Source: Fibrobacter sp. UWR2 (GTDB lineage: Bacteria; Fibrobacterota; Fibrobacteria; Fibrobacterales; Fibrobacteraceae). From it: a DNA stretch of 64,000 bases. How positions within the stretch are numbered: position 1 is the first letter of the stretch; the number at the start of each line of letters is the position of its first letter. Of the stretch, positions 411 to 46,758 are shown one piece after another. The translations under genes were made by a program, and so were the position numbers. The notes under the pieces were generated by a model that saw only the letters and a program-made list of their open reading frames with translations, had not been told where the DNA came from and did no database searches. Location of the stretch: contig NZ_MWQE01000001.1 in NCBI RefSeq assembly GCF_002210285.1, forward strand, positions 496,001 to 560,000, read 5' to 3'.

Positions 411-1964
411 CTAGTCTAGGATGGCGGGTTCTTTTTGCAACTCGTAAAAAACGCTGAGCCAGCTTTGCAGTTGCTGCCAGGTGGTGTCGCCTTTGGCCCG
501 GATGGAATCGTCGAAAGACGTGAGGAAGATTTCGTCGATTTCTCCATTGAAGGCGTTTTTCCCTCCGATACCAATGTTGAACTGCAATTCAGAAAAATCG
601 TCGCTAATTTTGATATCGGTGTTGCGGATGGTTTTCCCGTCAACGGCAATGGTCAGGTGCTTTTGCACAAAAACGACAAAGTAGTGGTGCCAGGAACCAT
701 CGAGAATTTTGGCGCTTCCGTAGAGGGTTGTGTCGGTGGATGCGGATTCAAGGCCACTATAGATTCTTGTGCAGATGGTGGCGGGGTCCTTTGAACATTG
801 CCTGATTTCAAAGCCTCCGTTGACGGAGGGTGTAGATGAAAAGATAGTGAACCCGGTGTCGGCAGGGGTTTCTCCCTTGATCCAAAAACTGAACCCTAGA
901 CTTCCGTCTTCGAACAGCGGGAATCCATCGGCATATTTGTGGACCTTGAGGTCTTTTTTTGTTGAATCCAGGTGTAGGCCGGTTCCGTAGAAGCCTTCGC
1001 TGTCGTATTCGTCCAGGTTGTAAAAGGTGTAGGGGTGGGGCCCGAAGGAAAGGTAGGTGGGCTCGATTTCGCGCAGGCTTAATACGTTTCCGTCCAGCAT
1101 GTTTGCCGAAATTTCGGGAAGGTCCATCAGCAACACTTCTTTTCCCTTGGCGGATTTTGCATCCAGCAGGTAATCGATTTCGTAGCCGTTGGCATCGATC
1201 AGGGTTGGGACTGTTTCGGACTTACTTTCCACCAAGATGGGTATGTGCTTCAGCGTGATGCCTGCATCCATGGCCTTGAGGGTTGCCACGACACTGTCGT
1301 TGAATGTCATTTTGCGGAGTCCCACCAAATAGCCGGGCTTGTTCCTGGTCACAAGGAGGGTGTCTTCAGAGCGGAAGCTCCAGTAGACGGAATCCGTCTC
1401 CGTTTCGCCTTCTGCAGTCATGATGGTGATTTTCTCAAAATAAGCATTGGGAATGCCATCGGCCAGTATGTAGCCACGGTCCACGTCTTCGGAATTCACG
1501 ACGAAGCAATTCAGCGAGCCGTCGATGCATATCGTGTCGCCAAGAGCGAGGTCGTAGGCGTTCAGTTCCAGCTTCAGGTTCGAGCCTTCGGAGACCTCAA
1601 AGCGATAGACGGAATCCTCAGGCTTCGTGATGTCGAGAATATTCCTGAAGTCCAGCAATCCGTCGGATGAGACCTGGATGTTGAAGGAGTCGCTTTTTAT
1701 ATCTTCAAAAGAGAATTTCCCGGAATCGTCGGTGGTCGTCTCCATTTCGGGATTGTCTCTCACGGCAATGAAGTCTCTCCGCATGAGGGCGACTTTGGCG
1801 CCCTTGATGGTGTTGCCGTCAAAGTCCGTCACGATGCCCGCGATGGTCTTCCCCGATTCCGTCTCGGAAATCACGCCCGCGGTGTCTTCGCCGTTGCTGC
1901 ACGCCATAAACAGCGACAGCAGTGCCGCCGCGCTAAAAAAGGAAATTTTATTTACTCCAATCAT
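411..1964 (-). CDS. Lipoprotein with regulatory-like beta domain and C-terminal LamG domain (module 1)
   Basis: A 517-aa predicted lipoprotein. The hydrophobic signal ends in a lipobox with Cys 22 (LFMACSNG). Right after it comes the stretch AGVISETES, a motif shared with the two other regulator-linked lipoproteins in this window. Residues about 37-110 resemble a carboxypeptidase-regulatory-like (transthyretin-type) beta domain. Residues about 350-500 look like a concanavalin/LamG-like jelly roll, with blocks GFSFWIKG, GSWHHYFVVF and the final FNGEIDEIF. LamG domains often bind glycans. The ATG at 1964 follows the stop of the upstream TIGR02147 gene by 2 nt, so the two are translationally linked. 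A longer in-frame reading into the regulator gene is rejected because the signal peptide starts here. The ligand is unknown. Confidence 0.82.
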   Translation of the reverse strand: MIGVNKISFFSAAALLSLFMACSNGEDTAGVISETESGKTIAGIVTDFDGNTIKGAKVALMRRDFIAVRDNPEMETTTDDSGKFSFEDIKSDSFNIQVSSDGLLDFRNILDITKPEDSVYRFEVSEGSNLKLELNAYDLALGDTICIDGSLNCFVVNSEDVDRGYILADGIPNAYFEKITIMTAEGETETDSVYWSFRSEDTLLVTRNKPGYLVGLRKMTFNDSVVATLKAMDAGITLKHIPILVESKSETVPTLIDANGYEIDYLLDAKSAKGKEVLLMDLPEISANMLDGNVLSLREIEPTYLSFGPHPYTFYNLDEYDSEGFYGTGLHLDSTKKDLKVHKYADGFPLFEDGSLGFSFWIKGETPADTGFTIFSSTPSVNGGFEIRQCSKDPATICTRIYSGLESASTDTTLYGSAKILDGSWHHYFVVFVQKHLTIAVDGKTIRNTDIKISDDFSELQFNIGIGGKNAFNGEIDEIFLTSFDDSIRAKGDTTWQQLQSWLSVFYELQKEPAILD

Positions 1965-1966
1965 CC

Positions 1967-2791
1967 CTACTCCAAATTCGAAAACAGGTGGATGTTCATC
2001 TGGTAGACGCCGTCGGCCTTTTCCTTGTCTTCGCCGATGATGCGCCTTGCCTTCGCCTTGAATTCCTGCAGTTCTGCCTCGAGTTTCTTGTATGCCTCGC
2101 TCGAGATGCTGAACGTGAGCGTGCTCATGACGGTCGGCTTTTTCGGGGGCGTCATCAGCGCCTGCTTCGAGAGCTCGAAACACTGCAACTGGTATTGCTT
2201 GATCAGGTCCGCGTTGTTGTACGGCCCGCTGCTGATGCTTTCCTTGGTGGGCTTCCAGAAGCCTTCCTCGTTCTTGCGTGCAAGCCCGAGCCTCTCCAGC
2301 AGGGCGAGCGATTCCTTGAGTTTGCCGAGCGGAACCTTCGGGAATATGCGCTTTTGCACCGGCGCCATGTCGTCGGTCACGTCCATCGCATCGAGGATGG
2401 CGAAGAGCGCGCTATTGTACCAGCGGCTGTAGTATTCGTAGGCATCCTCGTTCACGATGTGCTGCGGGTTCGGGTGCAACTTCAGTATTTCCTGCATCGC
2501 GGCATTGCGGGCGGCGTCGCTTTTCGCCTGGTCGAGCTGCACCAGCGTTTCGAAGTACTTGGCCTCTTTCTTGTCGAGTTCCAGCACCTCGATGAACTTT
2601 GCCACCATGCGGGGGGAGACCTTCTTGCCGCGGAGCACGTCGGCGAAGTAGCTGCGGCTCTTCTCGAGCCCGAGCATGTTGCAGATTTCGGTACGGGTAA
2701 AGGCCGGCTCCACCTTGGCGCGGGCGGCCTGGTATTCTTCCAGGAACTTGCGGAAGTGCGTAAACTGGAATATGTCTAAAAAACGATTCAC
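1967..2791 (-). CDS. TIGR02147/DUF4423 family predicted regulator (module 1)
   Basis: A 274-aa protein of the Fibrobacter 'second paralogous family' TIGR02147. It opens with an IFQFTHFRKFLEEY block, followed by an XRE-like helix-turn-helix (about residues 31-75, with FTRTEICNMLGLEKSRSYFADVL split by the recognition turn). The rest is an all-helical DUF4423-type domain containing the conserved aromatic YEYYSRWYNSALF region. The likely role is DNA-binding control of the adjacent lipoprotein gene, but this is inferred from the fold and coupling only. The start is GTG at 2789-2791, with TATATT 6 nt upstream and no usable Shine-Dalgarno. The lipoprotein follows after 2 nt. It is divergent from the M6 protease gene. 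Confidence 0.85.
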   Translation of the reverse strand: MNRFLDIFQFTHFRKFLEEYQAARAKVEPAFTRTEICNMLGLEKSRSYFADVLRGKKVSPRMVAKFIEVLELDKKEAKYFETLVQLDQAKSDAARNAAMQEILKLHPNPQHIVNEDAYEYYSRWYNSALFAILDAMDVTDDMAPVQKRIFPKVPLGKLKESLALLERLGLARKNEEGFWKPTKESISSGPYNNADLIKQYQLQCFELSKQALMTPPKKPTVMSTLTFSISSEAYKKLEAELQEFKAKARRIIGEDKEKADGVYQMNIHLFSNLE

Positions 2792-2797
2792 GCTCTA

Positions 2798-2803
2798 AAT
2801 ATA
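2798..2803 (-). promoter_or_regulatory. -10-like TATATT box, 6 nt before the GTG of regulator 1
   Basis: On the minus strand TATATT is followed by TAGAGC and then the GTG start. The AAGGGA further upstream is about 20 nt away and would be untranscribed or too distant to serve as a ribosome site. This predicts a leaderless message. Confidence 0.5.
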
Positions 2804-2966
2804 TATAATTCCCTTCTGAAAATGAGAATTTTTTTGAGAACATTTACGTATTTTCTCCCAAAAAAGCCAAAAAACGGCCATGATGAAAATCCGGTGTGAT
2901 TTTTCGCATAATTTTTATTATTTTCAAGATTACACGGAATAGGTCCGTTTTGGAAAAGGGATTGGA

Positions 2967-4916
2967 ATGGGTTGTTTTCTGAAAAAAAGTGTTGTTGTCG
3001 CCCTGGCAATTTGTGCCGGGGTCGTTTTTGCGCGTCCGGCCAGCATGGCGGTGCAGACGGTGCAGAACAAGGACGGCAGTTCGGTCTCTATCCGCCATTT
3101 CGGCGATGAACATTACCACTTTACCGAAACGGCCGACGGCTACCTGGTCACGGGAGACGGCGAAGGAAACTACGTATATGTGGATGCGTCGGGGAAGCCG
3201 AGTTCCGTGGTCGCGAAGAATGCGGTAGACCGCAGTGATGCCGATGTGAAATTCCTGGAAGGGCTGGATCAGGAGGCGGTCCGCAAGAACCACAAAAATT
3301 TGAACGGGGGACGATTTCCCGCTCCCGAAGAAACCTCGGGACAACTAAACTTTTCGCACCTTCCCTTGATGGCCTACGACCAGGCTGGAATGCCTGCGCG
3401 GATGCTCAGACCCAAGCCCAAGAGCTGGGTGACGGGCGAACGCTGGATACCCGTGCTGCTCGTGGGTACTACGGACAAGGCGTATGGCGATTCTGCTGCG
3501 TTCCATGCCTTCCTGAACCAGGAAGGCTACAACAAGAACGGCAATATTGGAAGCCTCCGCGATTACTACCTGTATTCGTCAGGTGGCAGGTTTAACCCGC
3601 ATTTCGATGTGTATCCGGTACAAATTAATGCGGCTCTGACCAGTTTCGGTATGGGGGACAGTTTCAGCGAGGGGCGCTTTATGGCGGAGGGTGTCAAGGT
3701 GCTGACCCAACGTCCGGACTTCCTTGCGAATGCTGACAAGTATTGCTCGAGCGGCAAGAGTGTTGACGGTTTCATATTCCTGTTCCCGGGCATGGAAGAG
3801 GATGCGCTCAAGCAGAGCCGGAACTTCTGGGGACATGCGTACCAGATGATGTACAACGGTTCTGGGTCAGGGTATGAGGCCTATAAGTCTAACGGCTATT
3901 CCTTCGACAAGTACCTCTTTATTGCCCAGTATGCCGACGGTTCCAGCAATTCGCAGATTAACCAGATGGGTATCTTTGCGCACGAGTTCAGCCATGTGCT
4001 CGGGCTCAAGGACCATTACGCCAAAGATGACAATGGCAAGATGATTGTAGGGCCCGACAAGTACGACGTGATGTCGCAGGGAATGTACAACGGGACGAGC
4101 TGGAATGCTGGCAACATCCCTGCCGCCTTTTCTGCATTCGAGAGGGAGGCCGTGGGCTGGCTTACGCTTTCCGAGATCTCTGTGGAAGATTCGGTATATG
4201 GCGTGAAGAAACTGGTGGACATGCAGGCGTACTCGATTACGAATCCGAAGCAGTCCGACGAGTACTATATAGTGGAGTACCGCCCTTCCGAAAAATACGA
4301 TGCGAAACTGGGGAACAACGGCGTGTTTGTATGGTATATCGATTACGACAGGGACCTGTACGAATACGAGAACGCCATCAACAAGGATAGCGACCACCAG
4401 CGTATCGCGGTGAAGAGTGTATTGAAGGCGGGGGCGAAGTTCAGTGACTTCTCGTTCGTCAATGGAGGGGGGAAGGCTGGCATTTCGGGCATATACAGCG
4501 TGGCCCTTGACGGGGATGCCCGTGCGTGCTTCACGCCCAATGCCTCCCGCAGCATAGGGGAGTGCTCGGAAGAATCGAGTTCGTCTGTGGAGAGTTCGAA
4601 CAGCGTGAGGTCGTCTTCTAGTGAAGCGTTGTCTTCTGGTGCGGTGTCTTCGTCGACGGTCGCGATTGCGGGCGTGGCGGCTGCCGACCCGCGGGTGCGC
4701 GTTTCGCTTTCGGGCAATACGCTCAATGTGGCCGCCCCGGATGCGGGCAAAAAAACGGTGCGCCTGTTCGACATGCAGGGGAACCTCCTGCTCGTGAAAT
4801 CCTTTGCCGGAACGGCCTTTTCGGCCCCCCTTCCGAGGCTTGTGCGCGGGGTGTATATTGTGCGAGTCGAATCGGACAATCGTCTGCTGAAAACTTTGCG
4901 TGCCGTAAGGCGTTGA
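2967..4916 (+). CDS. Secreted M6 family zinc metalloprotease with C-terminal sorting-type domain
   Basis: A 649-aa protein with an N-terminal signal peptide ending near VFARPAS. A pro-region follows (about residues 25-110) of the type found before M6 domains, with the GDEHYHFTETADGY pattern. The M6 catalytic domain carries the zinc motif HEFSHVLGLKDHY (His339, Glu340, His343). After it comes a serine-rich linker (about 530-560), typical of Fibrobacter secreted enzymes. The last 75 residues are a beta domain like T9SS type A sorting domains (VRLFDMQGNLLL and RGVYIVRV). It should act outside the cell on proteins. The ATG is preceded by AAGGGATTGGA, a plausible ribosome site. The next gene downstream is nuoB, 127 bp away and probably a separate unit. 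Confidence 0.87.
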   Translation: MGCFLKKSVVVALAICAGVVFARPASMAVQTVQNKDGSSVSIRHFGDEHYHFTETADGYLVTGDGEGNYVYVDASGKPSSVVAKNAVDRSDADVKFLEGLDQEAVRKNHKNLNGGRFPAPEETSGQLNFSHLPLMAYDQAGMPARMLRPKPKSWVTGERWIPVLLVGTTDKAYGDSAAFHAFLNQEGYNKNGNIGSLRDYYLYSSGGRFNPHFDVYPVQINAALTSFGMGDSFSEGRFMAEGVKVLTQRPDFLANADKYCSSGKSVDGFIFLFPGMEEDALKQSRNFWGHAYQMMYNGSGSGYEAYKSNGYSFDKYLFIAQYADGSSNSQINQMGIFAHEFSHVLGLKDHYAKDDNGKMIVGPDKYDVMSQGMYNGTSWNAGNIPAAFSAFEREAVGWLTLSEISVEDSVYGVKKLVDMQAYSITNPKQSDEYYIVEYRPSEKYDAKLGNNGVFVWYIDYDRDLYEYENAINKDSDHQRIAVKSVLKAGAKFSDFSFVNGGGKAGISGIYSVALDGDARACFTPNASRSIGECSEESSSSVESSNSVRSSSSEALSSGAVSSSTVAIAGVAAADPRVRVSLSGNTLNVAAPDAGKKTVRLFDMQGNLLLVKSFAGTAFSAPLPRLVRGVYIVRVESDNRLLKTLRAVRR

Positions 4917-32604: not shown

Positions 32605-33459
32605 ATGCTCAACATTGACGAAATCAGCGATTACAGGGATTTGCTCAAGAACTACTATACCCAGCGCAAGCTGGATATGCCCTTGTATTCCTATAAGATG
32701 ATGGGCCAGAAGCTTGGGCTCGAGACGAGCCAGATGTTCCGTGTGCTGAACAAGGAACTTCACCTGCCGAACCGCAGCATTCCGCTGGCGAAGGACCTGC
32801 TGGACCTGAAGGGTCGCAGTGGTGAAATTTTCGAAATCCTGGTGGCGGCATCCAAGACGAAGTCGCCTGCGAAGAAGGATAAGCTCTACAAGATGGCGCT
32901 TTCGCTCCAGGATGTGGACCTTCGCAAGTTCAATGCCAGCGAGTACCTGTTCCTGAGCAAGTGGTGGATACCCGTGGTGCGAGCGCTTATCGAGATGAAT
33001 GGAGGGCATGCCGAGGTCTCGCGCCTGGTAAAGCAGATATCTCCGGCCGTCTCGGAAGACCAGGTGCGCGAAGCCATAAAGGTACTCAAGGATTTGAATC
33101 TCATAACGCCGCTTGCTTCGGAACGCTATGCCGCGACGACCGCCAATTTTACGTCGGCAGGTTCGCCGACGAAGACGTCGGCTATCCGTAGTTACCAGAA
33201 TCAGCTTTTGTCGCTTGCCCAGAACGCCCTCGTTTCGGTAGAGCCTGCCAAGCGCAATATCTCGTCGTTGCTTGTGGGTGTCGACGAAGATTGCTTTGCC
33301 GACCTGAACGAAATGACGCTGGAATTCCGCCGCCAGGTACAAAAGAGGGTGGCTGAAGTCGACAAGCCGAATCGCGCGATGCAGTTCGTGTTTGCACTAT
33401 ATCCGGTCGCGGATGTTTCCAATAGCCCGCGGACAAAGAAAGAGGGGGTAAAGGTATGA
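32605..33459 (+). CDS. TIGR02147/DUF4423 family predicted regulator (module 2)
   Basis: A 284-aa member of the same family as the genes at 1967-2791 and 44299-45132. It has the opening DEISDYRDLLKNYY block, a putative XRE-like HTH (about 28-65, SYKMMGQKLGLETSQMFRVL), and the helical DUF4423 region with FLSKWWIPVVRALIEM. A TTG at 32581 would add eight residues. The ATG at 32605 is preferred because the DYR block then sits at residues 9-11, as in the third copy. No strong ribosome site is visible for either, so the start is uncertain. Its last four bases overlap the lipoprotein start (ATGA). Confidence 0.82.
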   Translation: MLNIDEISDYRDLLKNYYTQRKLDMPLYSYKMMGQKLGLETSQMFRVLNKELHLPNRSIPLAKDLLDLKGRSGEIFEILVAASKTKSPAKKDKLYKMALSLQDVDLRKFNASEYLFLSKWWIPVVRALIEMNGGHAEVSRLVKQISPAVSEDQVREAIKVLKDLNLITPLASERYAATTANFTSAGSPTKTSAIRSYQNQLLSLAQNALVSVEPAKRNISSLLVGVDEDCFADLNEMTLEFRRQVQKRVAEVDKPNRAMQFVFALYPVADVSNSPRTKKEGVKV

Positions 33460-34655
33460 AAAAGTTGCTTTTACTCCTGATGGTTCTGCTGTTTGTCGCC
33501 TGCTCGAACGATAAGGTGGCCGGTATCAGTACGGTCGAGACCGAAAACGCCTACCTGATCCAGATTGTTCACGAGGATTCCTTGCCCGCGGTCGGTGTCT
33601 TGGCCCGCATGCGTGCGGCAAGTTTTGTCCGCAGTGTTGAAGAAGATTCCGCAGGGGCGGAATACTACGAGGAATTCGTGACCGATTCCTTGGGGCAGAT
33701 TCGCATTGATAGCCTCGGCGTAAAAGAGGCTACGATTGAAATTGTCGATGCAGACGAAGGTTTGTTCACCAGGATCCGCGCCAAGGATATCAGGAGCGGA
33801 GACTCCGTACAGTATGCTCTCGAAAAAACAGGCCGCCTGCGTGGCAAGGTTTACTTGCCTGCGGGCGTTGACTACGCTTGGGTACAGGTGTATGGTTCCG
33901 ACCGCCTTGTAAAGACCGATAGCGAGGGCTTCTACGAGATGGATTCGTTGCCGCCGTATGAATACGGCCTGCGCGTCATTGTGGGTGACAGTGTTGTTGA
34001 AAATTCGGCGAAGGTTGGTGCCGGCGAGGAGGCTCGCGCGAATGTTTGCGCGTTCGAACCGGATTCCATCAAGGTGCTGGACTTTGAATCTGCGGATGCG
34101 CAGTTTGTTATCCGCGAGCTCGGTATAAGCGAGGCGGGTTACATGTCTTCTACGGATACGAGCGTGAAGACGACACCCGAGGTGGCGATGGTACCCGAGA
34201 CGCGCAAGGACATTGCGGATTTCTTTGTAGAAGCGGATGCCGGCCGCGCCGGTAACGCCTTGCACTGGATGTCTTCTGCGGGGCAAGGACGCTGGTCGTT
34301 CTACGGAATCTGGGTTTGTACGGAGGAATCGCCGTGCGATTTGTCTGCAACGGATTCCATCGTGTTCTATGCCCGCGGGAACGGAGTCATTTCGATTGCG
34401 CTCGAGACGCTCGGCAGTTCGAACGAAGAAGGCAAGACTTTGGCTTACGATACCCTCAATACAGACGAATGGCAGCGTCGCGTCATAAAGCCTGCTAATT
34501 TCAAGCCGCGCGACGACATGTACGGCAATCTCGGCTGGAATGTTGTCAGCAGGGCGGTGACGACCATCTCGATAGCCTCCTACGACGAGACCGAATTCTG
34601 GATAGACGATGTCGTGTTCTACGGCATCAAGCCCAGCGACTTCATCGTCAAATAA
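33456..34655 (+). CDS. Lipoprotein with a carbohydrate-binding-like C-terminal domain (module 2)
   Basis: A 399-aa lipoprotein with its lipobox at Cys 16 (LLFVACSNDK). Immediately after comes VAGISTVETENA, the AG..ET motif shared by the three regulator-linked lipoproteins. Residues about 30-190 contain two short beta domains like carboxypeptidase-regulatory repeats (for example GRLRGKVYLPAG, SEGFYEMDSLP). Residues about 205-395 form a jelly-roll resembling CBM11/CIA30-type galactose-binding domains, with blocks NALHWMSSAGQG, DSIVFYARGNG, EWQRRVIKP and EFWIDDVVFYG. Sugar binding is plausible but unproven. The 3' end overlaps the convergent pseudouridine synthase gene by 8 bases. Confidence 0.82.
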   Translation: MKKLLLLLMVLLFVACSNDKVAGISTVETENAYLIQIVHEDSLPAVGVLARMRAASFVRSVEEDSAGAEYYEEFVTDSLGQIRIDSLGVKEATIEIVDADEGLFTRIRAKDIRSGDSVQYALEKTGRLRGKVYLPAGVDYAWVQVYGSDRLVKTDSEGFYEMDSLPPYEYGLRVIVGDSVVENSAKVGAGEEARANVCAFEPDSIKVLDFESADAQFVIRELGISEAGYMSSTDTSVKTTPEVAMVPETRKDIADFFVEADAGRAGNALHWMSSAGQGRWSFYGIWVCTEESPCDLSATDSIVFYARGNGVISIALETLGSSNEEGKTLAYDTLNTDEWQRRVIKPANFKPRDDMYGNLGWNVVSRAVTTISIASYDETEFWIDDVVFYGIKPSDFIVK

Positions 34656-43446: not shown

Positions 43447-44070
43447 ATGTCCGCTAATCCCATAATCGTCGTTGACTACAATGCCGGTAACCTGACGTCC
43501 GTGATGAATGCGCTTGCGCATATCGGCGTGGATGCGAAGTCTAGCCGCGATGCAGGCGAGATTGCGAAGGCGACGCGCCTGATTTTCCCGGGTGTGGGTG
43601 CCGCCGCTTCTGCCATGGAAACGCTTACGCGCACGGGCATCGGTGATGCCATCAAGGCCGTGGTGAAGGCGGGCAACCCGGTGCTCGGAATCTGCATCGG
43701 TTGCCAGATTATCCTCGAAGAGAGCGAGGAGGATGGCGGCGTCAAGACCCTCGGGCTCATCCCCGGCAAGGCGGTTCGCTTCAAGGACGAACCGGGCCTC
43801 AAGATTCCGCACATGGGCTGGAACCAGGTGAACTTCACCCGCGAACACCCGATTATGAAGGGCATCCGCAGTGGTTGCGATTTTTACTACGTGCATTCGT
43901 ACCACCCGGTGGTGCCTGCGGAATACGCTTTTGCCGAAACGACCTACGGTACCCAGACGTTCCAGGGGCTCATCGGCAAGGATAACCTGATTGCAAGCCA
44001 GTTCCACCAGGAAAAAAGTGGCGATGTGGGCCTCGCCATGCTAAAAAATTTCTGCGAATGGATCCCGTAA
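43447..44070 (+). CDS. hisH: Imidazole glycerol phosphate synthase, glutaminase subunit
   Basis: A 207-aa class I glutamine amidotransferase that supplies ammonia to HisF in histidine synthesis. The nucleophile Cys lies in LGICIGCQIIL, and the His/Glu pair in SQFHQEKSG. The N-terminal VDYNAGNLTSV block is typical of HisH. It is not in a his operon here; its partner hisF must be elsewhere. Ribosome site GAGAGG and a TATCTTTG box lie upstream. Confidence 0.95.
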   Translation: MSANPIIVVDYNAGNLTSVMNALAHIGVDAKSSRDAGEIAKATRLIFPGVGAAASAMETLTRTGIGDAIKAVVKAGNPVLGICIGCQIILEESEEDGGVKTLGLIPGKAVRFKDEPGLKIPHMGWNQVNFTREHPIMKGIRSGCDFYYVHSYHPVVPAEYAFAETTYGTQTFQGLIGKDNLIASQFHQEKSGDVGLAMLKNFCEWIP

Positions 44071-44097
44071 AGGGGCGGAAAACCCGTTTTTTACATT

Positions 44098-44121
44098 CCC
44101 GGGCCTTTGGTCCGGGTTTTT
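44098..44121 (+). terminator. Terminator of hisH
   Basis: An 8-bp stem CCCGGGCC/GGTCCGGG with a TTT loop is followed by five T. Confidence 0.85.
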
Positions 44122-44259
44122 CATAGTTACGGTTTTTCTGAGGTGTAGGCCTAATTTCTCAAATTTGGCCGTTTTTGTATCATAGATTTTGAGATTTTTT
44201 CAATTACAACAAAAAACAACGAAATTTTGCAAAAAACACAAATTTTGTATCGCAAAATA

Positions 44260-44288
44260 TTGACAAACGAATAAAAATAAACTATATT
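44260..44288 (+). promoter_or_regulatory. Consensus sigma70-type promoter of regulator 3
   Basis: TTGACA (44260-44265), a 17-base spacer, then TATATT (44283-44288). The expected transcription start is only about 3-4 nt before the ATG at 44299, and no Shine-Dalgarno exists in the 10 bases between. This is the best -35/-10 pair in the window. Confidence 0.75.
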
Positions 44289-44298
44289 CCTGTATACA

Positions 44299-45132
44299 AT
44301 GAAGCCGATAACCGATTATGTGGATTACCGACGCTACATGCAGGACTTTTACGATGAACGTAAGAGGACTTCTGCGTTTACGTGGCGCGAATTTGCACGC
44401 TTGGCCGGCTTTGTGTCGCCGACGTATTTGAAGCTCGTCTGTGAGGGGAAGACGAGACTAAAGAACGATGGCGTGGAACGGACCGCATTGGCTATGAGGC
44501 TGGTGGGTTACGAAGTGGATTACTTCCGCATGATGGTCAGATATGCCCATGCAAAGACGGACTACGAACGTAAAAAGGCGTACGACGAAATGCTGAGCAT
44601 AGCGGGGGAGCATAAGGTTAAGGTTGTCGATGAAGACGCTTTCGCCTACTTTGAGACCTGGAAGAATCCCGTAATCCGTGAACTGGCGCCCATAATGCCA
44701 GGGGCGAAGCCCGGGGATATCGCGAAACTCTGCTGTCAGGGGGTTTCTGCGGGCGATGTGCGCGAATCCTTGGACTTTATGACCAAAGCAGGCCTCCTGA
44801 AGAAGGACAGGAAGGGCAACTACACCCAGACCGATAAGGCTCTAAGAGGTGATTCCGAGGTCATGCCCGTGGCGATCCGTTCCATGCATCGTGAAATGGC
44901 TAAATTCGGCCTTGCCGCTATCGATGACTTTGCCCTGTCGGACCGAAATATTTCGGGTGTCACCATGGGCGTGGACCGGGCCGCCTACGAACAAATTCTG
45001 CAGGAACTCGAAGCTTTTCGCCGTAGGATTGTGACCATAGCGAACGCTACGAAGAAAGTAACACAGGTATATAGACTAAATTTGCAGTTGTTCCCCCTTT
45101 CGTGGACTGTACCTGATGAGAAGAACGATTGA
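44299..45132 (+). CDS. TIGR02147/DUF4423 family predicted regulator (module 3)
   Basis: A 277-aa member of the same family as the genes of modules 1 and 2. The start block ITDYVDYRRYMQDFY is followed by an HTH-like region (about 28-62, FTWREFARLAGFVSPTYLKLV) and the helical DUF4423 part with EDAFAYFETWKNPVIREL, matching YEYYSRWYNSAL in copy 1. The C-terminal TQVYRLNLQLFPLS also matches GVYQMNIHLFSNL of copy 1. It has a strong promoter (TTGACA-17-TATATT). Its end overlaps the lipoprotein gene by 17 bases. Confidence 0.86.
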   Translation: MKPITDYVDYRRYMQDFYDERKRTSAFTWREFARLAGFVSPTYLKLVCEGKTRLKNDGVERTALAMRLVGYEVDYFRMMVRYAHAKTDYERKKAYDEMLSIAGEHKVKVVDEDAFAYFETWKNPVIRELAPIMPGAKPGDIAKLCCQGVSAGDVRESLDFMTKAGLLKKDRKGNYTQTDKALRGDSEVMPVAIRSMHREMAKFGLAAIDDFALSDRNISGVTMGVDRAAYEQILQELEAFRRRIVTIANATKKVTQVYRLNLQLFPLSWTVPDEKND

Positions 45133-45952
45133 CAACTGGAAAACGTTGTTGGGCATTGTCGCCTTGCTGAGTTTCGCATGCACGCGCGACGTGGCGGGAA
45201 CAACCGAAGAAACCAATGCGCTTGCGCATGATGAATCGTCGTCGTCGCTTGGTGGAAAATCGAGTTCTTCTTACAGCGAATTGCCTAGTTCTTCAGGATC
45301 TGTTGGCATATCGTCTGGAGTTTCCGATTCGTCCCAGGTGCCTTCGGATTCGCTGAACGACAATGTGCTGAATGGCCGATACTGGAATACCTTCAGGAAG
45401 GAAGACGGTGTTTCTGACCTTGTGTCGGTGAATATGGAGGTTGATGAACAGGAAGGCGTCTATGTCTCGTATGCGTTAGCGGGCTCGCCTTATGGTGGTG
45501 TGGTCGGTGCGTCGAGAAAGACAACCTTCGGTGTTTCCATCAAGGTTGACGGAAGTGAAGAAAATGCGTATTCCGATATGAAGACCTGGACAAGTGGCGC
45601 GTGCTACATGGTGACGTCTGATGCGCCGATTATCCTGAAGATGGGTATGTCGCCGGAGAAGGAAAGGGAACTGGAGTATGACCTGCCGCAGGCGACACTT
45701 GTTGGGCCTGGCGAGGTTGGCAATCTGGTACTTCGTTGCCTGAGCTGGCTTGATTTCGAACAGCAGGGATTTGGCCCGAGCATAACCATTGAAGAAGCCT
45801 TCTTCGATTACATGACTGAACTTCGGTTTGAACTGCAAATTGAAGGGGACAACTTCGAAGGATCGTTTAAGATAAGCCAGATCCGTCGTGGCGGCACGGG
45901 TATCAGTGCGGATGTCGACGGCACGGAAGTCCATTTAAACGACGGTGAATAA
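45116..45952 (+). CDS. Lipoprotein with serine-rich linker and unknown C-terminal domain (module 3)
   Basis: A 278-aa lipoprotein with its lipobox at Cys 22 (LLSFACTRDV), then AGTTEETNA, the shared AG..ET motif. Residues about 40-80 are a Ser-rich linker (ESSSSLGGKSSSS and similar), typical of Fibrobacter surface proteins. The C-terminal 190 residues form a beta-rich domain (GRYWNTFRKEDG, FGVSIKVDGSEENAYSD, CYMVTSDAPI), perhaps a carbohydrate-binding jelly roll like its module 2 counterpart, though I cannot assign a family. It begins within the regulator gene, so their synthesis is coupled. A terminator follows. Confidence 0.78.
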   Translation: MRRTIDNWKTLLGIVALLSFACTRDVAGTTEETNALAHDESSSSLGGKSSSSYSELPSSSGSVGISSGVSDSSQVPSDSLNDNVLNGRYWNTFRKEDGVSDLVSVNMEVDEQEGVYVSYALAGSPYGGVVGASRKTTFGVSIKVDGSEENAYSDMKTWTSGACYMVTSDAPIILKMGMSPEKERELEYDLPQATLVGPGEVGNLVLRCLSWLDFEQQGFGPSITIEEAFFDYMTELRFELQIEGDNFEGSFKISQIRRGGTGISADVDGTEVHLNDGE

Positions 45953-45959
45953 AAAGAAA

Positions 45960-45992
45960 GCGGCTTCTTGTGTAGAAACCGCAAATCTTTTT
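45960..45992 (+). terminator. Terminator between module 3 and rph
   Basis: GCGG-x-TTCT pairs with AGAA-x-CCGC (one mismatch), followed by ATCTTTTT. Confidence 0.65.
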
Positions 45993-46032
45993 ATCGGAGC
46001 GCAAGAGCCAGAGTTTGGCGCGAGCGGTTTCT

Positions 46033-46758
46033 TTACGGGAGTTCGCCGCCGATCAGTTCCATCTGCTTCTTGAAGATATCCTTGCAGGCGTTCTCGCCGA
46101 GGTCGAGGAGCGTGTTGAGCATGCTGCGGTCGAAACTTGCGTGTTCGCCGGTGCCCTGAACCTCGATGAAGTTCTTTGCGTCCTGCATCACGACGTTCAT
46201 GTCGACGTCGGCGGCGGAATCTTCCACATAGCAAAGGTCGCAGAGCGGCTTGCCGTTTACGACGCCTACCGAGATGGCGGTAATTCCATGCTTTAGAATT
46301 TGCTGCGTGATGCCGAGACGTTCCTTGATTTTCTTGAGGGCGATGGCAAGGGCCACGAAGCCGCCGATGATGCTCGCGGTACGCGTGCCACCGTCGGCTT
46401 CGATCACGTCGCAGTCGACCACGATGGCGTTTTCACCGAGTGCTGCCAGGTCGGCTGCGCCGCGAAGCGAGCGGCCCACCAGGCGCTGGATTTCTTGCGT
46501 ACGGCCGCTTGCGCCCTTGCGCTCGCGTTCTACGCGCTTGCCCGTGCTCTGCGGGAGCAGGGAATATTCAGCGGTAATCCATCCGGTGCCGCGGCCGGCG
46601 AGCCAGTCGGGGACTTTCGGCAAGAGGGTCGCATTGCAGATGACGCGGGTGCGTCCCATTTCGATGAGGACGGAGCCGTCGGCGCTAGAGATGAAGCCGG
46701 TGGTCATCTTGAGATTGCGGTATTCGTCAAACTTTCTGTCGGTACGTTCGTATGCCAT
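46033..46758 (-). CDS. rph: Ribonuclease PH
   Basis: A 241-aa phosphorolytic 3' exoribonuclease that trims tRNA precursors. Family motifs are GSVLIEMGRTRVICNA, GWITAEYSLLPQST, and the catalytic region DCDVIEADGGTRTASIIGG (quoted as seen). The length is standard. AGGGA lies before the ATG. It is 9 nt downstream of pheA and probably cotranscribed. Confidence 0.96.
   Translation of the reverse strand: MAYERTDRKFDEYRNLKMTTGFISSADGSVLIEMGRTRVICNATLLPKVPDWLAGRGTGWITAEYSLLPQSTGKRVERERKGASGRTQEIQRLVGRSLRGAADLAALGENAIVVDCDVIEADGGTRTASIIGGFVALAIALKKIKERLGITQQILKHGITAISVGVVNGKPLCDLCYVEDSAADVDMNVVMQDAKNFIEVQGTGEHASFDRSMLNTLLDLGENACKDIFKKQMELIGGELP

Follow-up and report, generated by a model that had tools for sequence, protein, structure and literature searches.

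TIGR02147/DUF4423 regulator genes in Fibrobacter are directly followed by a lipoprotein gene, and the partner lipoproteins share a short box close behind the lipidated cysteine. The explanation that we favour, which as a whole has roughly an even chance of being correct, treats each pair as a surface-display unit under autoregulation, whose regulator would recognise the box of its own prelipoprotein. The same two-gene unit is present at dozens of places per Fibrobacter genome.

Regulator–lipoprotein pairs in the window, the genome, and the phylum

The window, the whole 64,000-nucleotide stretch of Fibrobacter sp. UWR2 DNA analysed here (G000:C1:496001-560000), belongs to a 3.28-Mb genome with 31 TIGR02147 genes and contains three regulator–lipoprotein pairs, with gaps of +2, −4, and −17 nt and coordinates exactly as in a preliminary description of this DNA. 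Cassette 1, on the minus strand, comprises a regulator gene (1967..2791; 289.5 bits against TIGR02147; DUF4423 E 1.7e-25; GTG start, kept in orthologues) and a gene for a lipoprotein with lipidated Cys22 and CarboxypepD_reg and Laminin_G_3 domains (411..1964), in which the box AGVISETESG (1851..1880) lies 7 residues past the lipidated cysteine. Cassette 2, on the plus strand, comprises a regulator gene (32605..33459; 152.9 bits against TIGR02147; ATG start, kept in orthologues) and, with a 4-nt overlap, a lipoprotein gene (33456..34655; Cys16), with the box AGISTVETEN (33519..33548) read from the sequence. Cassette 3, also on the plus strand, comprises a regulator gene (44299..45132; 306.1 bits) and, with a 17-nt overlap, a lipoprotein gene (45116..45952; Cys22), and its box AGTTEETN (45194..45217) matches the box profile with E 2.1e-12, this box being in the model's training set. 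For regulator 1, the putative cognate peptide is AGVISETESGKTIA, and the boxes of cassettes 2 and 3 would be non-cognate. DUF4423 is found in all three regulators, and all three pass the TIGR02147 cut-off (50 bits) over their full length; by score, they are members of the 'Fsuc_second' paralogous family (TIGR02147, NCBIfam; DUF4423, Pfam PF14394). An M6-like metalloprotease gene (2967-4916), divergent from cassette 1, stands beside the orthologue in 18 of 30 loci. Cassette 3 lies in the hisH-rph interval (43447-46758), which in many Fibrobacter genomes is a fixed cassette site; the TIGR02147 regulators found there are as little as ~60% identical, and one to three lipoproteins accompany them.

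The outer parts of the three lipoproteins really differ, as the preliminary description held, and LamG is present in lipoprotein 1. Its 'unknown beta domain' in lipoprotein 3 has to be revised: the protein has no Pfam match, but its model contains a predicted CBM11/CIA30-like beta-sandwich (45374..45919, plus strand; AF2 model, domain pLDDT mostly >80), for which the top Foldseek hits are the CBM11 structures 1v0a, 6r31, and 6r3m (E 5.7e-5 to 4e-4). Lipoprotein 2 gives a weak CarboxypepD_reg match only. Among the 30 partners in the window genome, CarboxypepD_reg-type domains occur in 10 (E <0.01), and some partners also carry LamG, CBM_4_9, or a pectate-lyase beta-helix. FISUMP (PF09603) occurs in 9 of the 30, is missing from most, and is in none of the three window lipoproteins.

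Across the window genome, a lipoprotein gene lies downstream on the same strand of 30 of the 31 TIGR02147 genes (gap −41 to +22 nt), 28 of the 30 partners being called by our own lipobox and hydrophobicity rule, not SignalP, and two by eye. As a background, 132 further same-strand pairs with tight spacing were taken from ~660 kb of this genome; in 25 of them the second gene is lipoprotein-like, a count that the permissive caller inflates. The difference (binomial P ~1e-20) indicates that the pairing is not due to chance. A one-genome-per-species scan, which used a narrower sequence set, an alignment of all 23 paralogues being too diverse, returned 79 related loci, all of them in other Fibrobacter genomes, and a partner stands beside 79 of 79 regulators. 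The family is present in 157 of 168 genomes of the phylum, and under a relaxed lipoprotein rule a partner accompanies 92 of 104 regulators sampled from 13 families. First-look TIGR02147 counts reach 88 in a relative. These censuses bear out the pairing proposed in the preliminary description, and the outcome that it had named as a sign of chance pairing was not seen. Of its suggestion of an undescribed Fibrobacter system, the recurrent, undescribed unit stands and the restriction to Fibrobacter falls, since the unit extends over the whole phylum, with one hint from Bdellovibrio.

One genome (G025), counted as an exception, has the reversed order, with the lipoprotein gene before the regulator, and keeps the box AGGSGTETPN. 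The sole unpaired regulator of the window genome (C10:52957) lies ~2.8 kb from a box-bearing lipoprotein gene without an adjacent regulator. Tandem cassette duplications are present at C1:83261/86104/89820 and C3:58477/61358/64367. Several families outside Fibrobacter (L104, L116, L148, L158, L160, L190, and others) have R, Q, N, D, or H, in place of A, G, or S, before the lipidated cysteine of the partner, and the lipobox therefore seems relaxed in those families.

Outside the phylum, one relative was found: a DUF4423 gene (E 1.9e-25) on a plasmid of Bdellovibrio sp. HAGR004 (L357 3989-6286), with a 4-nt overlap with the gene for an exported, non-lipidated protein starting GNAKVIGNGGNEIAL. 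The end of the next gene on this plasmid resembles FISUMP proteins (VRCIE). A viral or plasmid origin of the cassettes was rejected, no relative being found in phages or viral contigs.

The box and its relation to the regulator

The signal-adjacent motif that the preliminary description saw in the three lipoproteins is a conserved box, approximately [AS]-G-x-[TS]-x-E-x-N, that usually starts 5–11 residues past the lipidated cysteine. A regular expression for the box matches 74 of 87 partners and 12 of 131 other lipoproteins, 5 of the latter 12 being products of second or third genes of cassette operons. A profile comprising signal peptide and box, built from partners and searched across the whole window genome, yields only two extra full-length matches at E <1e-3, one being encoded next to a cassette array, behind its last gene, and the other being the orphan lipoprotein near the unpaired regulator. 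The profile has no match in four TIGR02147-free genomes. The box is specific to TIGR02147 partner lipoproteins. A tandem double box seems to be present in partners from L249, L254, L256, and L257 (e.g. SWEETNAF...AGSSETEN).

To compare the box with the regulator, we used 291 non-redundant regulator–lipoprotein pairs. For regulators 80–90% identical, identity is 0.84 in the box, 0.31 in the signal peptide, and 0.23 in the body (first 20 residues). For regulators ≥75% identical whose lipoprotein bodies have no detectable similarity, identity is again 0.84 in the box and 0.15 in the signal peptide, a contrast to which a single group, window cassette 1 and its orthologues, contributes nearly all the data, which counts against the favoured explanation. 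Conversely, for regulators <60% identical with homologous bodies, box identity is 0.31–0.35, near background. The cassette 2 orthologue cluster (n = 28) has a box identity of 0.93 versus 0.31 for the signal peptide. Judged from these alignments, the box follows the regulator and not the rest of the lipoprotein. Box identity drops toward background once regulators are less than ~60% identical, as slow drift under shared inheritance likewise predicts. Mutual information picked out no regulator domain co-varying with the box. In the 29 cassette 1 orthologues, the box AGVxTETESG is nearly invariant, its codons vary synonymously, and signal peptides and bodies diverge. The combination of a fixed peptide and synonymously free codons points to selection on the peptide and not on DNA; the box as a DNA or RNA element was ruled out on the same 29 orthologues.

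Two readings of the box that give it no contact with the regulator have to be weighed here. The first, which we consider unlikely though worth keeping in view, takes the box as a periplasmic sorting or surface-translocation signal, the regulator autoregulating the operon without touching it. Lipoprotein sorting signals lie beside the lipid anchor, as the box does, and absence of the box from other lipoproteins is what a dedicated export route needs; yet a common signal should not be regulator-specific, whereas the box flavour follows the regulator and not the body, the cassettes have no other invariant companion gene, and no candidate translocon was noticed. The Bacteroidota lipoprotein export signal (LES) is a short motif just past the lipidated cysteine, and the cassette box is likewise a short motif close behind it; unlike LES, the box is confined to TIGR02147 partners, is located 5–11 residues downstream, and co-varies with the regulator. 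A general, LES-like sorting signal was rejected, other lipoproteins being essentially without the box (12 of 131 by the loose regular expression, two extra full-length profile matches).

The second, a simple autoregulated operon whose box would be left over at the N-terminus from cassette duplication, passed on by inheritance and without a regulatory role, is improbable. Cassettes do duplicate in tandem, with the regulator linked to the 5′ end of the lipoprotein gene, but the signal peptide, which lies between regulator and box, is far less conserved than the box, the synonymous saturation of the box codons indicates that the peptide is selected, and both pair and box persist in the reversed gene order.

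Candidate operators and the predicted regulator fold

The cassette promoters have a recurrent operator architecture. In a survey of 84 non-redundant upstream regions, in which the best direct repeat was compared with that in shuffled sequences, the best repeat has a spacing of 68–76 nt in 35 of 84 promoters, versus 1–8 in shuffles. This fixed-spacing test is decisive; simply comparing repeated promoter words within and across cassettes gave a weak signal. The half-site words vary by cassette (GTATCAT, GTTGCAT, GTACTAT, GTTTCAT, and others). The proximal half-site abuts the −35 element, at about −50 relative to the start codon, and the distal half-site forms a perfect palindrome in 14 of 36 cases, versus 1% of controls. 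Many cassettes tend to carry a candidate private operator pair, the twin word being present in only 35 of the 84 promoters. Of the 31 regulator genes, 12 have a −10-like hexamer that ends 7–9 nt ahead of the start codon, compared with 10 of 167 control genes, and a hexamer so near the start codon suggests near-leaderless transcripts.

Cassette 1 has a candidate operator GTTCTCAAAAAAATTCTCA (2823..2841, minus strand), which is conserved upstream of orthologues and for which 0 occurrences are expected in the window, and, from the sequence and the orthologue alignment, a −10-like TATATT (2798..2803, minus strand) 6 nt before the start codon. Elsewhere in the genome, this candidate operator is matched once more (G000:C8:130283-130301, L358), at a site ~64 nt ahead of a gene for a pectate-lyase-like protein. 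In the promoter of cassette 2, the twin word is not clear. Cassette 3, on the plus strand, has a distal candidate operator word TTTTGTATC (44173..44181), a proximal copy of it (44243..44251) 70 nt downstream, and a sigma-70-like promoter TTGACA-N17-TATATT (44260..44288; 11 of 12 consensus positions), all three conserved in orthologues. Among the other cassettes, C1:25639 has a perfect operator that is unique in the genome and lies in the promoter of this cassette. The C6:54344 operator has two copies, one in the cassette promoter and one ahead of an unlinked gene for a VWA-domain lipoprotein (G000:C2:111470-112720, L359). The latter copy is followed by a third half-site 73 nt downstream, and the encoded lipoprotein has a box-like AGMSEESYSA, making it a likely trans target.

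The model of the cassette 3 regulator (pLDDT 85.9) contains an XRE-type helix-turn-helix (HTH) at residues 6-90, a winged helix at ~105-180, and a C-terminal helical part, and TIGR02147 regulators are accordingly predicted to be DNA-binding HTH proteins. A search of the PDB returned only HTH and winged-helix relatives; no match was seen for the C-terminal part, which is no proof of a new fold. The regulator has no transmembrane segment. From the operator architecture, autoregulation by the cognate regulator is likely.

The preliminary description read the pair as a surface-sensing or surface-display unit with a self-controlled partner. Control of the operon by its own regulator is the part that the operators make likely; surface sensing is unsupported, because the unit has no component that crosses the inner membrane: its regulator is a cytoplasmic protein, and the cassette encodes nothing to carry a signal across two membranes. 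A sensor in which polysaccharide binding by the ectodomain is relayed to the regulator would fit the carbohydrate-binding folds of the partners (CBM11-like, CBM_4_9, LamG, beta-helix) and the second copy of the cassette 1 operator before a pectate-lyase-like gene; with neither a transmembrane partner in the cassette nor a membrane segment in the regulator, and with similar regulators able to front unrelated bodies, we regard it as very unlikely.

RRNPP regulators include PlcR, PrgX, and Rgg, and in enterococci lipoprotein signal peptides act as pheromones. The cassettes resemble these systems in their XRE-type HTH and in the adjacency of the regulator gene to an exported partner. Nevertheless, a circuit in which the regulator senses the signal peptide of the neighbouring lipoprotein is close to negligible and was rejected on signal-peptide divergence (0.15, against 0.84 for the box): although a cytoplasmic HTH regulator directly precedes an exported protein and the enterococcal precedent exists, signal peptides do not track regulators where these are similar and the bodies unrelated, the conserved element lies past the lipidated cysteine, and the predicted model is a winged helix plus helices with no evident TPR array and no TPR match in Pfam, PlcR and PrgX aligning only to the HTH part.

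Proposed mechanism and significance

In the autoregulated display unit that we favour, each cassette would be self-contained, with regulator and lipoprotein made from one short transcript and translationally coupled. The regulator would bind its own promoter at the cassette-specific operator, and the box just past the lipidated cysteine would have to match the cognate regulator. Since the box belongs to the mature N-terminus and the regulator stays in the cytoplasm, any contact must precede or accompany export, which favours an autoregulation that depends on how the cognate lipoprotein is exported. Specifically, we infer from the co-variation, more weakly than autoregulation, that the regulator may directly recognise the box in the cytoplasm, on the nascent or unexported prelipoprotein. 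Transcription would then be set by the amount of cognate lipoprotein awaiting export, an export-coupled feedback, and many surface lipoproteins could be kept under separate feedback without cross-talk, their outer parts free to diverge or swap.

FlgM-sigma28 and ExsE-ExsC-ExsD are export-coupled regulators, and the proposed unit is like them in that a regulator in the cytoplasm would learn the state of export from an exported protein. It differs in that the DNA-binding protein itself would read the mature N-terminal box of a Sec-exported lipoprotein, and in that the cassettes form dozens of parallel pairs per genome. A broader proposal, tentative and somewhat short of an even chance, is that TIGR02147 proteins are one-component regulators whose ligand is the box of their own prelipoprotein, dozens of orthogonal regulator–operator–tag sets per genome metering the export of interchangeable surface lipoproteins throughout the phylum.

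TIGR02147 is a large paralogous family (31 copies here), and its phylum has a central role in the breakdown of plant fibre. The TIGR02147/DUF4423 entries give no function, partner, operator, or box, and no mention of TIGR02147 was found in the literature searched; one paper lists a Bdellovibrio DUF4423 protein with no function given. For FISUMP/Fib_succ_major (TIGR02145, PF09603), a role in adhesion or as a cohesin-like domain has been considered (PMC4704652), and a link to TIGR02147 or the box was not found in the FISUMP literature examined. The family now has a partner, a candidate operator, and a testable candidate ligand, and part of the FISUMP family is tied to it. The S85 genome paper described few recognisable regulators near cellulases (PMC3079729), and the cassettes offer a handle on the regulation of Fibrobacter surface proteins, a question that it left open for cellulases. 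If box recognition is true, the cassettes would provide a ready set of orthogonal regulator–tag pairs, and they appear to represent an undescribed way to control each surface protein separately.
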